From positions 164,620-228,619 of the forward strand of contig NZ_BMZH01000004.1 in the NCBI RefSeq assembly GCF_014652695.1: a stretch of 64,000 bases of DNA, read 5' to 3'. Below the pieces are notes generated by a model. That model saw nothing but the letters and a program-made list of their open reading frames with translations, was not told the DNA's origin and ran no database searches. This DNA comes from Algimonas arctica (lineage in GTDB: Bacteria > Pseudomonadota > Alphaproteobacteria > Caulobacterales > Maricaulaceae). Shown piece after piece: positions 1-50,212 of this stretch; position 1 is the stretch's first letter; each line of letters starts with the position of its first letter. The position numbers and the translations under genes were made by a program.

Positions 1-2228
1 CTGAACGCGCCATCCCAGCGGTCACCCGTCAGGAAACACGTCGTGTCTTGCGGACCCCTGCAGCAACAACTGAACGGGTTATCCCGGCTGTGACGAAGCA
101 ATTGCAGCGTCGCGTCGTGCGCCAGCCTGCAGCAGTTACTGAACGCGCCATCCCAGCGGTCACCCGTCAGGAAACACGTCGCGTTGTCACGCAACCGGCT
201 GTCACTGTCGAACGGGTCATTCCAGCGATCACCAAGCAGATCCAACGCCGCGTCTTGCGGACACCGGCTGCTGTGGTTGAACGGACAATCCCAGCGGTTA
301 CCCGTCAGGAAACGATGCGCCGCATCACTCAACCTGCCGGTACCGTCGAACGGACAATCCCGGCTGTGACCAAGCAAATCCAGCGCCGCGTTGTGCGGAC
401 ACCGGCTGCCGTGACAGAGCGGACAATCCCAGCGGTTACCGAAGCCATTACGCGCCGGGTTATAGCGCAACCGGCTCGTATAGTTGAGCGCGCGGTCCCA
501 GCGGTCACGCGTCAGGAAACACGCCGAGTGCTTCGTAATCCTGCACAAGTCACTGAACGCGCAATTCCTGCGGTCACACGGAACGAGACACGTCGTGTCA
601 TTCGGACCCCAGCCCGCACGGTTGAACGGACTGTACCAGCGGTCACGAAAGCGATCACGCGCCGCGTTATCGCGCAACCTGCACAAGCGACAGAACGGAC
701 AATCCCAGCGGTTACCAAAGAAGTGACCCGCCGCGTTGTCCGGACACCGGCTCAAGTGACAGAACGGGTTGTCCCCGCTGTGACGAAGCAAGTGTCGCGT
801 CAAATCCTGCGTCAGGAAGCCCGCGCGGTTGAACGGGCCATCCCGGCCATAACCCGGACGGAAACACGTCGCGTTGTCACTACGCCCGCACGGACTGTTG
901 AACGGACCATCCCGGCTGTCACCAAAACGATCTCACGTCGTGTTGTTGTTAACCCGGCAAGTGCCGTTGAACAGACGATCCCGGCTGTGACTGAAGCTGT
1001 CACGCGCCGTGTCGTCCGCACCCCTGGCCGCGTTGAAGAACGTCAGATCCCGGCTGTGACCCGCGCGGAAACACGTCGTCGCATTGTCAGCCCAGCGCGC
1101 AGTGAACAGCGGGTTATCCCGGCTGTGACTCGCACGGTTGAACGCCGCGTCGTCGCTCAAGCGGCACGCGTCGATGAGCAGACGATCCCAGCGGTCACGC
1201 GGACCGTGACACGCCGCGTCGTTGATCAAGCCGCCCGCGTCGAGCAACAAGTCATTCCAGCGGTCTACCAGACTGTTGAAGTGCAGCGTGTTGTGACCCC
1301 GGCTCGGACAGAGCGGATCACAATCCCCGCTGTCTATGACACGATCGAGAAGCGCACAGTGACAAGCGCACAACGCTCAGAATGGCGTCAGGTTCTCTGC
1401 GAAGCGAACGCCAACTCTGTGGTTATCTCGGCCATCCAGCGTCGTCTGCAAGAATTGGGCTTCTACTCCAGCGCCATTAACGGTCGCCTGACACAAGAAA
1501 CCTACTCAGCGGTTGAGGCGTTCCAGACGTCACGCAATCTTTCCACAGGCGGGCTAACGCTTCGTACAGTGGACGAATTGCGGGTCGATTGGCGCTCAAT
1601 GGTCAGTGGTGCAATTACCACAACGACCACAGGCTTCACCACGGGTGCATCAACTCAGACAAACACTACGGGTATCCAAACCGGAACAGTGACCGAAACC
1701 ACAACTCGCACATTGTCTTACACAGTGCGCGATGACGGCATGGTCATCGACGGCAACGGAACGGTTGTCGGCCGTTACGAAGCATCGACCGGCAATGTCA
1801 TCAACAGTGCAGGTGTCATCGTTGTCCGAAACCTGCAAATCGTTGCTGGATCGCGTCGCGAAACAACGGTCACGACACAAGGCCCAACGGTTATCACCGG
1901 GTCGCAAACGCGAACCACGACAACCCAAATGCCAACAGTTGTGACCGGCGGATCAACGATCATCTCGGGTGAGTCGACCACGACAACGACATCGGGTTCA
2001 CGTAACCCCGTCTCTGTCCTGCCTCGCGCCCAAGTCGGATCGCAAAGCTCTGGCAGTGTGCTGACGTCAACAGGTCGCTCAGTCACGACAGGAAGCTCAT
2101 CCTCGAGCTTCACGGTTCGCTCTGACGGCTTTGTTGTCGACGGAACGGGCGCTGTGATCGGCCGTGTTAACGCTCAGGGCCAAATCCTGGACGCACAAGG
2201 CAATGTCATCGGCTCGGTTAACAACTAA
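1..2228 (+). CDS. Tandem-repeat protein with peptidoglycan-binding domain (5' truncated)
   Basis: The reading frame (codons from base 3) is open to the window edge, so the start lies upstream and about 741 residues are visible. The first 460 visible residues are 20 uninterrupted copies of a 23-residue unit with consensus E-R-x-I-P-A-V-T-x-x-x-x-R-R-V-V-x-x-P-A-x-x-x. A W-R-Q-V-L-C-E linker follows, then a PG_binding_1-like domain (about 1413-1580; S-A-I-Q-R-R-L-Q-E-L-G-F-Y and Y-S-A-V-E-A-F-Q). A Thr/Ser-rich tail contains two related motifs, at 1719-1824 and 2109-2225, each beginning Y/F-T-V-R-x-D-G. Alphaproteobacterial envelope proteins with a few I-P-A-V repeats before W-R-E-V-L-C-E and a PG-binding domain are known to me; this array is much longer. 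Probable envelope or surface-stalk protein binding peptidoglycan; exact role unknown. A strong terminator follows. Confidence 0.85.
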   Translation, partial: ERAIPAVTRQETRRVLRTPAATTERVIPAVTKQLQRRVVRQPAAVTERAIPAVTRQETRRVVTQPAVTVERVIPAITKQIQRRVLRTPAAVVERTIPAVTRQETMRRITQPAGTVERTIPAVTKQIQRRVVRTPAAVTERTIPAVTEAITRRVIAQPARIVERAVPAVTRQETRRVLRNPAQVTERAIPAVTRNETRRVIRTPARTVERTVPAVTKAITRRVIAQPAQATERTIPAVTKEVTRRVVRTPAQVTERVVPAVTKQVSRQILRQEARAVERAIPAITRTETRRVVTTPARTVERTIPAVTKTISRRVVVNPASAVEQTIPAVTEAVTRRVVRTPGRVEERQIPAVTRAETRRRIVSPARSEQRVIPAVTRTVERRVVAQAARVDEQTIPAVTRTVTRRVVDQAARVEQQVIPAVYQTVEVQRVVTPARTERITIPAVYDTIEKRTVTSAQRSEWRQVLCEANANSVVISAIQRRLQELGFYSSAINGRLTQETYSAVEAFQTSRNLSTGGLTLRTVDELRVDWRSMVSGAITTTTTGFTTGASTQTNTTGIQTGTVTETTTRTLSYTVRDDGMVIDGNGTVVGRYEASTGNVINSAGVIVVRNLQIVAGSRRETTVTTQGPTVITGSQTRTTTTQMPTVVTGGSTIISGESTTTTTSGSRNPVSVLPRAQVGSQSSGSVLTSTGRSVTTGSSSSSFTVRSDGFVVDGTGAVIGRVNAQGQILDAQGNVIGSVNN
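3..1382 (+). repeat. 20 in-frame copies of a 69-bp tandem repeat
   Basis: Unit boundaries fall every 69 bp from base 3 to 1382 without an insertion or deletion, each unit coding 23 residues beginning Glu-Arg or a close variant. A longer 138-bp period is visible near the 5' end: bases 2-42 recur identically at 140-180, and units ending in K-Q-I/L-Q alternate with units ending in R-Q-E-T. Units diverge toward the 3' end, where Thr at position 8 becomes Tyr in the last two. The array probably continues upstream of the window. Confidence 0.95.
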
Positions 2229-2345: not shown

Positions 2346-2448
2346 GCCCGCTACTGCCGCCCGGTGAGTCTTTCACGCGCGCGGCTTTCGTGATTTTTGG
2401 GCTCTCTAGGCATGTGCCGGCCCGACCAAACAGTAAGGACGGAACATC

Positions 2449-2760
2449 ATGTTCGCAGTCATCAAGACAGGCGGCAAACAATACAAAGTTGCCAAAGACG
2501 ACATTATAATTGTTGAGAAACTCGACACCGAAGAGGGCAAAACTGTCACCTTCGACGACGTGCTTATGCACGGCGCGGATGGCGACGTTAAAGTCGGCGT
2601 ACCGATGGTCGACGGCGCGTCCGTCACCGGTGAAGTGATCGAACAACGTAAAGGCGAAAAAGTTCTCGTCTTTAAAAAGAAACGTCGTCAAAATTATCGC
2701 CGTAAACGCGGCCATCGTCAGCTGGAAACAGTTGTACGTATCACAGGCATTACGGGCTAG
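2449..2760 (+). CDS. rplU: 50S ribosomal protein L21
   Basis: Structural protein of the large ribosomal subunit that binds 23S rRNA. The 103-residue length and the N-terminus [14 protein letters not shown] are typical of L21, as is the basic C-terminal stretch [16 protein letters not shown]. The ATG at 2449 has an upstream AAGGACGG. It is 34 bp ahead of rpmA, the standard bacterial rplU-rpmA pair, and is expected to be cotranscribed with it. Confidence 0.98.
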
Positions 2761-2794
2761 CGTTCGCGCGCCCTTCTCAATCTAGGAGACCGAC

Positions 2795-3064
2795 ATGGCA
2801 CATAAAAAAGCAGGCGGCTCGTCCAACAACGGTCGCGACTCCGCAGGTCGCCGTCTTGGCGTGAAAAAATTTGGTGGCGAAGCTGTCATTCCCGGCAACA
2901 TCATCATTCGCCAGCGTGGTACAAAATACTATCCCGGCACCAATGTCGGCATGGGTAAAGACCATACGCTCTATGCGATGGAACAAGGCCGCGTGTCTTT
3001 TGCGAAAAAACGCAATAACCGCACTTATGTTTCTATTGATCCAGTGGCCCAAGCCGCAGAGTAG
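2795..3064 (+). CDS. rpmA: 50S ribosomal protein L27
   Basis: Large-subunit protein whose N-terminal tail reaches toward the peptidyl-transferase centre. The 89-residue sequence begins [16 protein letters not shown], the unprocessed proteobacterial form with no cleavable extension as in Firmicutes. A strong TAGGAG lies upstream of the ATG. It is the last gene of the rplU-rpmA unit, closed by the terminator at 3117-3149. Confidence 0.98.
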
Positions 3065-47338: not shown

Positions 47339-47937
47339 TAAGCCAGACCTCGGCTACCCGGCTTGATCGCGACAGTCCCCGCGAGTTCTGGCGGTAGATC
47401 ATTGGGATCGTAGTCAGGGAACCGTTTTGAGGCGAGACTGATGAGCGGCACGCCAATATCCGCGTCTCCGCCCGATCGATCAAAGATACAGCAGCCCGCA
47501 ATGACGTTTCCGCCCGCTTTCGTAATGGCGGCAATCGTTTCACGCGATGACAGGCCGGTCGTGACGATATCTTCGACCATCAGCACGGTTTGGCCTTCCT
47601 GTAAGGTAAAGCCCCGCCGCAGTGTAAACTCTCCGCCTTCACGCTCCATAAACATGGAGTTCAGACCCAGCTGACGCGCCATTTCATATCCGGGAATCAC
47701 GCCGCCCATGGCGGGCGCAATGATCACATCGGGCAGCGTTCCTAACTGCTCACGAACTTTATCGGCTAAGGCCGCACAGACCTTGGCGGTCAGGATTGGG
47801 TTTTGAAAAATCAGTGCTTTTTGCATAAACAAGGCGCTGCGCCGTCCAGATGACAGGATGAAGTGACCTTCCAACAAAGCCCCGGCTTCGCGAAAAATAT
47901 CTAGCACATCCGCTGTCGTCATTTTGCTTTGTGTCAT
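47338..47937 (-). CDS. pyrE: Orotate phosphoribosyltransferase
   Basis: Joins orotate to PRPP in pyrimidine synthesis. The PRPP-binding motif [11 protein letters not shown] is present, as is [10 protein letters not shown] use ATG 47937, which follows the rel stop by one base (TAAgATG), giving 199 residues; ATG 47922 (M-T-T-A-D-V-L) is also likely and ATG 47973 less so. The N-terminal stretch [15 protein letters not shown] is a small internal duplication around these starts. Confidence 0.95.
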
Positions 47938-47938
47938 C

Positions 47939-50212
47939 TTACTTTTCGTCACTTTGCTTTGCGTCTGAGACATTGCTTTCGCCTTTTTCAATCTGTGACC
48001 GCGTTCGATCAGCGGCGACGACATAGGTCGACGTGCGCATCGCGGCAATAATCGCCAGAAGGTGCCTGTTGTCGCGGACCTCCAGATCTAACAGCATGTC
48101 AAAGAATGCCGGGCTGCGTTGCAGCGTCTTGATGTTGATAAGGTTGCCGAAATTCTCACCAATGATGCGTGTGACGTCCGCCAGAGCCCCGGGGACATGT
48201 TGAACGGTCGTTGTGACACGGGCTGTCGAGGCAGCCTTCTCGGCGGCGCGACGCCACCCAAGGTCGATCCAATCCTGAGGATCGGATTCGTGTTTCGCCA
48301 GCTCTTCACAATCAATTGTGTGGATATCGATCCCACCTTGGCGCGATTGCAGCCCTATGATCCGGTCGCCGGGTATCGGTGAGCAACAGGATTCTAGATG
48401 TAAGCTTACACCGGGCCGCAACTCTTCGCCTTTGACATAAAGCCGCGCGCTCCTGTCACTTATCAAGTCACGGTTGGCCATTTCTTCGTCGGCATCGCGG
48501 TCTTTTAGCGCCGGAAAAACGGTGATGATGAAGTCGTTCATGGAAAGATCGCCACGACCAAGAATTTCATAAACTTCTTCGACGTCGGTCAGCCCCATAC
48601 GTTTCACAACATCGCCCAGAGATTTCTCCGCAAACGGTTGGTTTTCACGTTGAAAGGCATGCTCGGCCAGCATCGCCCCAATACGCCGGAATTCTTCAGC
48701 TTCTCCTTCGCGCGTCAAGCGGCGGAGGGCCGACCGCGCTTTACCCGTTACGACCATATTCTCCCAGCCCTCTTGCGGTTCGGGCGTCCCGCCCCGCACG
48801 ATCTTGACAACATCGCCGTTGCGCAGCTGGGTTCTTAACGGAACACGGCTACTATTCACGACAGCGCCGATACAGGTGTCGCCAACTTTCGTGTGGACCG
48901 CATAAGCAAAATCGAGTGGCGTCGCGCCGCGCGGCAAGGAAATCAGATCACCTTTCGGTGTAAACGCGAAAACCTGATCCGCGAACATTTCCATTTTTGC
49001 GTTTACAAGGAATTCGGCGGCATCGCCGGACTGTTCCATCATCTCAACAAGGGGTCGAATTCGGCGCACCGGATCGCCGCCAGACGCCTTGGCTCGTTCC
49101 GGGTCATAGGCGTAGGATTGGTCTTTATACGTCCAATGCGCGGCCACGCCCCGTTCGGCCACATCTTCCATACGTTCCGTGCGGATTTGGATTTCAACGC
49201 GGCGATTATCGGGGGTACGAATGGTGGTGTGCAGCGATTGATAACCGTTGGGCTTGGGCACGCTGATAAAGTCACGAAACCGTGCCGGAACCGCCCGATA
49301 GTTGCGATGCAAGATACCTAAGACACGATAACAATCTTCCTCTGTTTCGGTCAAAATCCTGAAAGCATACAGATCAGCCACGTCTTCAAAACTAATATTT
49401 TGCCGCTGTAATTTTCGCCAAATCGCGAAGGGACGTTTTTCCCGTCCGTAAATGCGGACCGATAAATTATACTTGTCAAACAGGTCTCTTAGAGCCGTCG
49501 AAACATCACTAATCGCTTCGCCTTGATTTTCGCGCCAATCATCGAGCCGCCGCATAATGCCTTCATAGGCCCCCTCATTAATGTGCTTGAACGAGAGATC
49601 TTCAAGTTCTGAACATATTCTGTCCACCCCGATTCGACGGGCCAGAGGCGCATAGATTTCCAAAGTCTCTTTCGCGATCCTTTCGCGGGACGATTGTCGC
49701 GGATGATATTCCAACGTGCGCATATTGTGTAATCGGTCGCACAATTTCACCAACAGAACGCGGACATCCTTGCTCATTGCGAGAACGAATTTCTGGAAAT
49801 TCTCCGCCTGAGCACTCTCTTTGGTGGCAGACGGACTCAATTCCAATTGCGACAGCTTCGTCACACCATCAACAAGTTCCGCGATCTCAGGCGTAAACTC
49901 TTTGGCCAATTCCTCACGCGTCACATCCGTATCTTCGAGAACATCGTGAAGCAGTGCCGTGCAGATCGAAGCTACATCAAGATGGAGATTTGCCAAAATA
50001 CCGGCGACTTCGATCGGGTGGGCGAAATAAGGATCGCCCGAATGGCGCTTCTGTTCACCATGCGCTTTGATGGTGAAAATATAGGCCTTATTGATCAGTC
50101 CTTCATTCGCCGAAGGGTCATACGCCTTTACCCGCTCGACCAGTTCAAACTGGCGCAGATAGCTGGGCTTTCCGCTTTCGGGGGCGGGCAGGATCGGCGT
50201 GTGATCGTTCAC
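47939..50212 (-). CDS. Bifunctional (p)ppGpp synthetase/hydrolase (Rel/SpoT)
   Basis: Makes and degrades the stringent-response alarmone. Domains in order: HD hydrolase (H-P-I-E-V-A, H-D-V-L-E-D-T), synthetase ([10 protein letters not shown]), TGS (F-A-F-T-P-K-G-D-L), and C-terminal ACT (V-P-G-A-L-A-D-V). GTG 50212 gives 757 residues; the frame runs to a GTG at 50248 but that lies inside the rpoZ terminator. It is the only long Rel homologue here, so it is probably the sole Rel of alphaproteobacterial type. rpoZ is directly upstream and pyrE follows. Confidence 0.95.

Follow-up and report, generated by a model that had tools for sequence, protein, structure and literature searches.

A giant PG_binding_1 protein of Algimonas arctica whose two repeat arrays probably pair as an antiparallel beta hairpin

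Results

Gene layout and repeat arrays at the start of the window

The window, a stretch of 64,000 nucleotides from Algimonas arctica (contig NZ_BMZH01000004.1, positions 164,620 to 228,619), opens inside a gene on the forward strand, in which 20 head-to-tail units of 69 bp, each encoding 23 residues, run from 9 to 1388 with zero indels and are followed by a PG_binding_1 domain. Neighbouring units shared 58% DNA identity, compared with 27% for base-shuffled units, and the 20-unit array is far beyond chance; Tandem Repeats Finder picked it up in parts only. The gene lies directly upstream of rplU, which was also found downstream in four of five other loci whose translations were read (L066, L067, L074 and L086); at the fifth (L062), rplU was not among the listed open reading frames, to which a filter had been applied. 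A short 15-bp tandem repeat of 3.3 copies was present elsewhere in the window, at 47917-47965. The features of the gene within the window, all on the forward strand, are as follows; the units at 9..1388 are numbered B27-B46 if arrays B and A both hold 46 units.

3..8, +, final two codons (E-R) of the basic unit that the one-N gap interrupts
9..1388, +, 20 tandem 23-residue units, base half of basic array B, proposed mirror partners of A1-A20
285..353, +, TIPAVTRQETMRRITQPAGTVER, unit of array B whose residue 13 is Arg, mirrored by the aromatic unit A16
1044..1112, +, QIPAVTRAETRRRIVSPARSEQR, unit of array B whose residue 13 is Arg, mirrored by the aromatic unit A5
1251..1388, +, last two B units, distinct (by reading), base of the proposed hairpin, mirroring A1 and A2
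1398..1400, +, third conserved cysteine (WRQVLC), putative disulfide partner of the first cysteine (GECF) upstream of the window
1425..1574, +, PG_binding_1 domain (Pfam score, structure model, Foldseek)
1710..1832, +, small predicted beta tail domain (structure model, approximate limits)
2112..2228, +, second small predicted beta tail domain, C-terminus and stop codon (structure model)

The first base of the window (164620) directly follows a single N in the assembly (contig C4:164619); this N does not keep the reading frame and so most likely stands for a gap of unknown size. On its 5' side, the gene begins with a signal-peptide-like start (MKRTLLMAASVAVLAAPSVAQ, judged by eye) and GECFARV, which holds the first cysteine, and continues into an acidic array, A, of 46 units of 23 residues (two units, an insert and 44 units). 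A linker ending in TGEILC, the second cysteine, separates A from the basic array, B, of which three distinct units, one degenerate unit, 20 complete bulk units and one cut unit lie on the tip side of the gap. The window carries only the base half of this second array, after which come WRQVLC, the PG_binding_1 domain, a tail and the stop codon at 2228. The initial annotation, which had described at least 20 in-register copies ahead of a PG_binding_1 domain and an array running past the window, was thus confirmed on both points, and the extension of the contig that it had proposed yielded the further units of B and the 46 units of A. The protein has at least 2,600 residues, and the complete homologues counted have 2,429 to 3,044; we consider it likely that the gene whose 3' end lies in the window encodes a giant, exported protein of the envelope.

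The PG_binding_1 domain (PF01471) scored 34 bits against a curated cut-off of 23, and its model reached a pLDDT of about 87-96 per ten-residue block. The best Foldseek match of the model was the N-terminal domain of SleB (6tci; probability 1.00, rmsd 0.8 over 54 columns, E 0.034), and the modelled domain has the helical peptidoglycan-binding fold. The proposed C-terminal anchor is like other PG_binding_1 proteins in sequence and predicted fold, but the shared domain is a small part of the protein and is uninformative on the arms. When the C-terminal 336 residues were modelled, the PG domain was well predicted and two small beta tails were found, the second of which contains the best DUF3659 stretch (2112-2219), whereas about two B units, supplied without their A partners, formed no strands (block pLDDT 55 or less). 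Searches of Pfam and NCBIfam returned no model of the repeats. Matches of the arms to the Pfam families Ntox28 and YvfG were discarded as chance, being below cut-off with no stretch passing alone, and a sequence search of solved structures gave weak matches only, one of which was SleB for the PG domain.

Relatives of the giant protein

When genomes of the family were searched with a profile of the C-terminal region, 129 of 137 gave matches at E up to 0.001, mostly in short proteins or fragments, and 38 of the 137, from 8 of 19 genera, gave matches at E below 1e-60 (counted by eye; some on broken contigs). A profile search of genome contigs returned 33 loci, 31 of which carried alphaproteobacterial titles, including Algimonas, Litorimonas cladophorae, Robiginitomaculum antarcticum, Hellea balneolensis and many metagenome-assembled genomes; one short homologue among the 33 (L094) was gammaproteobacterial. 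A cut giant gene with 54 B units (L078) lay on a contig labelled Granulosicoccaceae, a gammaproteobacterial name, and is perhaps misbinned, transfer being another candidate reading. The two species that were looked up both belong to the Robiginitomaculaceae; the published accounts of Algimonas porphyrae and Fretibacter rubidus place both in this family, as prosthecate (stalked) bacteria from the sea (PMC11556061, PMC11556079). No relative of the giant protein was found in the viral contigs searched, and the plasmids searched gave one weak partial match and nothing stronger.

The ordinary homologues are short proteins with two blocks of four 23-residue units, each block led by a Cys segment and closed by a Trp. 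Of 14 short proteins run automatically, 13 fitted this 4/4 pattern (A span to within three residues; B start by reading); the one skipped, L119, is without the first Trp. An intermediate 6/6 form was read in L114 (G082), its second block including one long degenerate unit, and the gammaproteobacterial L094, as well as L122 from a genome of the phylum, were read as having four Cys...Trp blocks with three units in each (3/3/3/3), which may represent a four-arm version. The giant protein has the architecture of the short family, in that equal blocks, each led by Cys and ended by Trp, precede PG_binding_1; short members such as L060, L058 and L117 share with it the unit length, usually the cysteines, the C-terminal PG domain and the equality of the blocks, but have 4+4 units as opposed to 46+46 or 54+54. 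The second Cys is missing from two short members (L059 and L061). Since the short homologues are equal in all three forms (4/4, 6/6 and 3/3/3/3), equal blocks appear, from these sequences, to predate the giant form. The repeats of four short proteins scanned were matched by no Pfam or NCBIfam model. With a profile of the short form, matches at 1e-10 were obtained in 24 of 398 genomes from the phylum, the window genome included, many of them over part of the profile only; in the window genome, a short 4/4 paralogue (L056, contig C3 near 72000) has no Pfam-recognised PG domain.

A protein with units resembling both ends of the giant protein was seen in a metagenome-assembled genome (G002, contig C36; L145:1424-4663). 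It is a YfbK-type vWA protein of 1079 residues, with base-like units (last B, first A) and tip-like parts (linker, first B, last A), and long frames in six other genomes (G016, G008, G035, G028, G004 and G012) match parts of it. When the window genome was searched with this protein, the only match at 1e-20 was the giant gene itself. On sequence resemblance, the vWA protein is a possible cap or assembly partner of the giant protein.

Unit numbers of arrays A and B are equal in nearly all complete homologues

Units were counted by explicit tiling in the 26 homologues with both arrays complete, which come mainly from stalked marine Alphaproteobacteria, 9 of 35 listed rows being left out on account of contig ends or Ns. 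The two arrays were equal in 23 of the 26, with 18 proteins at 54/54 and five at 46/46. A count of 54 for B includes the degenerate, mostly insert-bearing fourth unit, without which B would be 53; the covariation register described below supports its inclusion. The three unequal proteins (52/48, 54/50 and 42/41) are all from metagenome-assembled genomes (G002, G015 and G061). The rows left out include two with B = 48 and A cut off (L076 and L096), two with B = 54 (L078 and L081) and one with B = 35 and Ns (L089); as B = 48 occurs, array lengths are not confined to 54 and 46.

Equality as an artefact of assembly was rejected, because two 54/54 proteins come from contigs of 3,169,281 and 3,450,490 bases, exactly the lengths of the complete Nanopore chromosomes published for Algimonas porphyrae (LMG 26424) and Fretibacter rubidus (JCM 15585), respectively (PMC11556061, PMC11556079). 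The units are diverged, the longest exact DNA repeat being 23-107 bp across the 26 homologues. In the unequal proteins, the longest exact repeats in B are 39-50 bp, so that assembly collapse is not an obvious cause of the unequal counts; their marker pairs match from the tip and from the base, each up to a point, which places the missing B units inside the array, and either a real loss or an assembly error is possible.

On a tree of the non-repeat parts, the 46/46 state requires at least two origins, and the window protein (A = 46) groups nearest with 54/54 relatives, which by parsimony makes a third change of A. In both lineages where B could be counted, B had matched the change of A from 54 to 46 (by parsimony). 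Among the proteins with A = 46, one clade has a middle marker pair at 26 that the others lack (L085, L087, L090 and L097 versus L049 and the window protein); the loss of eight units may have arisen in different ways. No indel was seen inside the bulk unit runs, and the near-constant unit number, together with the divergence of the units, suggests selection on length.

These counts divide what the initial annotation had said of array length. The array is unusually long when set against the ordinary relatives with 4+4 units, but among the closest kin the length is nearly constant, and a shared length in related species, which had been named beforehand as counter-evidence, was largely what we found there.

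Mirrored covariation between the arrays

Each bulk unit A_k of the 23 equal proteins was compared with B_(N+1-k), giving 1064 mirrored pairs, which are not independent, as the proteins share descent. Between position 7 of A and position 15 of B, 862 of the 1064 pairs were of opposite charge (756 acidic/basic and 106 swapped), 202 had a neutral partner and none was like-charged, whereas the number of like-charged pairs never fell below 161 in 2000 within-protein shuffles. When the same positions were compared at six shifted registers, 57-97 acidic/acidic and 48-76 basic/basic pairs were found. The two Nanopore-matched proteins, each taken alone, likewise had no like-charged pair, a value that was reached by none of 5000 shuffles of either. 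In 13 short homologues, none of 52 A7/B15 pairs was like-charged and eight were opposite, the low number of opposite pairs arising because B15 is mostly neutral there.

A second signal came from position 9 of A, where an aromatic residue was opposite Arg or Lys at B13 in 110 of 110 cases (three more Arg/Lys occurred without an aromatic); the phi coefficient was 0.985 at the mirror register, as against 0.16 or less at the 24 other antiparallel offsets (-12 to 12) and 0.50 at the best parallel offset (-7). When all 23 x 23 column pairs were ranked by how far they exceeded shifted registers, the summed unit positions were 18-25 for 21 of the 22 top couplings listed; the couplings include A7-B15, A9-B13, A12-B8, A2-B21, A18-B1, A19-B2 and A3-B18, with A7-B22 as the outlier. 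Total information was 31.5 bits at the mirror register, compared with 20.1-26.4 bits at other antiparallel registers and 20.1-26.8 bits at parallel ones. Values were raised at the neighbouring register (-1) as well; some of its pairs sum to 44, the value expected from wrap-around, and others do not, so that these pairs are not all at the sums predicted by a simple ladder.

Parsimony on a tree of the 18 54/54 proteins gave 14 joint steps for the aromatic/Arg pair, as against 12+13 when the two sides were counted separately, and 35 joint steps for the A7/B15 salt bridge, as against 22+28 separately and 43-46 at shifted registers; the effect is weaker for the salt bridge than for the aromatic/Arg pair. 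The special units also mirror one another by reading, the degenerate A51 facing the degenerate B4, and the distinct A1-A2 facing the last two B units.

The window protein follows the same pattern. Its aromatic A units, 5, 16, 36 and 40, are all mirrored by B units with Arg at position 13 (4/4), of which those left of the gap, counted from the tip, correspond to 40 and 36, and those in the window, counted from the base, to 16 and 5; of 38 usable A7/B15 pairs, 20 were opposite and none like-charged. If B equals A at 46, the gap is predicted to hide the rest of B25 and all of B26. Together these data make it very likely that A and B pair in one antiparallel register, and are blind to whether one chain or two take part.

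Structure prediction and alternatives to a self-paired chain

A tip segment of 521 residues (10 A units, the linker and 10 B units; 24 sequences) was modelled with AlphaFold2, with poor overall confidence (mean pLDDT 65.4, pTM 0.21). The model consisted of regular strands of 12 and 7 residues, with two-residue breaks at Pro-Ala and a pLDDT of about 80 near the tip. Strand limits in A and B mirrored one another within one residue about a sum of 511 and, past an 8-residue insert, 519, which in unit positions is a sum of about 21, near that of the covariation register. Since pairing was read from mirrored strand boundaries, and equal periods alone would yield such a mirror, the model is consistent support for an A-B ladder rather than proof of it. 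Comparison of the arm fold with known structures gave nothing convincing (best Foldseek E 0.14; best VIA-align Z 2.5, to the iota toxin Ib pore), a lack that does not make the arm fold new.

Pairing of A with B within one chain is, in our judgement, likely. The arms could instead pair between molecules, A of one chain lying on B of another in an antiparallel dimer or a mesh; covariation would then be seen between the same residues and is equally compatible with such an arrangement, and the G002 vWA protein, with units like both ends of the giant protein, hints at exchange between chains. In the tip segments examined, however, a linker of 52-60 residues lies between the end of A and the start of B, as suits a hairpin, and tip units modelled in a single chain give mirrored strands; we regard intermolecular pairing as improbable.

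A disordered polyampholyte with blocks of charge, collapsed into a coacervate or gel, would account for the net charges computed for complete proteins (about -115 to -198 for the acidic array and +93 to +216 for the basic one), but not for the exact register and conserved unit counts, nor for the aromatic and other couplings besides charge and the bulk runs in which no indel was seen, and has very little to recommend it.

The initial annotation had envisaged an extended rod or beta-solenoid. That each array folds alone in this way, with equal length incidental, would fit the 23-residue period of both, but the absence of like-charged pairs among 1064 at one register only and the equal counts in 23 of 26 proteins speak against it. 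A beta-solenoid is a single-chain coil with rungs stacked from successive repeats; strands in the tip model (mean pLDDT 65) were mirrored between A and B, a pattern that equal periods alone would also give. The B units modelled without their acidic partner were predicted to be unstructured, which ran counter to the expectation of a regular fold for the repeats alone (a weak control, with about two units). The stand-alone form was rejected on the register-specific covariation, and we give it almost no credence; a long rod stays the best physical picture, as an antiparallel pair with the acidic array. Descent, by duplication or gene conversion between the arrays, is just as hard to credit as the source of the mirror pattern and was rejected by reasoning: A and B units are similar in length and motif, but all lie in one orientation, so that duplication would leave parallel likeness (k to k+c) and cannot yield mirrored complementary charges, and the marker pairs, at differing positions across clades, are still matched.

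Discussion

A model for the giant protein

We propose that the giant protein is a peptidoglycan-anchored beta hairpin, a wall-anchored long strand whose arms are zipped in register, and consider this reading likely to be right. Arm A would run outward, the conserved linker would turn, and arm B would zip back along A; each unit would supply one long and one short strand, parted by Pro-Ala kinks, to an antiparallel, in-register beta ladder. A disulfide between the first and third cysteines may close the base of the hairpin, which the C-terminal PG domain would hold on peptidoglycan. A structural or tethering role is somewhat favoured, in which the protein would bear load as a strand of nearly fixed length, either holding the tip linker at a distance from the wall anchor or following the wall.

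An extended strand rises by about 0.33 nm per residue, at which the ladder would measure about 0.41 micrometre with 54 units or about 0.35 micrometre with 46, the number in Hellea balneolensis. A more specific version of the hairpin model is tentative and, on balance, falls a little short of an even chance: one chain, self-zipped over about 1,240 residues per arm into a ladder of about 0.4 micrometre, would serve as a molecular ruler with set length steps, and the vWA protein may cap or assemble it. Register would be kept by a pairing code (charge at A7/B15, aromatic at A9 and Arg at B13), and length would move in set steps, array A having gone from 54 to 46 three times by parsimony. Against strict length steps count the B arrays of 48 units in two cut proteins and the 42/41 protein of one genome.

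Comparison with known repeat proteins

Staphylococcal tethers of the SasG/Aap type are long, monomeric tandem-repeat surface fibres of high mechanical strength; SasG is reported to consist of folded domains in series on one chain and to be variable in length (PMC4458895). On that description, the giant protein differs in having two separate arms that are matched unit by unit and are nearly fixed in length, and the G5 and E domains typical of SasG were not among the Pfam matches of the window protein at E up to 1. Periscope Proteins are described as rod-like bacterial tandem-repeat proteins whose repeat number sets their reach, with highly similar repeats in variable number (PMC8201768). By comparison, the giant protein has diverged units (longest exact repeat 23-107 bp) in conserved number: DNA identity between adjacent window units was 58%, and counts of 54/54 or 46/46 recurred in 23 of 26 homologues from different genomes.

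In a literature search whose scope took in few subscription papers, no account of the giant protein or of a matched two-arm repeat zipper was recognised. Since no repeat model, convincing fold match or paper was found, and since SasG and Periscope Proteins differ as described, the matched two-arm arrangement of repeats seems undescribed, within the limits of the model, fold and literature searches.

If the model is correct, a natural protein uses complementary repeat arms as nucleic acids use strands, with arms of equal length, antiparallel orientation and compensatory changes at matched positions. It would then point a way to self-assembled beta strands that are very long and of encoded length, would be a case in which to test how tandem repeats preserve their exact number of copies over long divergence, and would constitute a structural component, so far unstudied, of the envelope in stalked marine bacteria; the claims of a two-arm zipper are directly testable in cultured species. 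Besides the three conserved cysteines, an extra cysteine pair, absent from the one other protein listed alongside, was seen in L042 (G014), in which the motif ECNC occurs in two B units (unit starts at residues 1815 and 2229).
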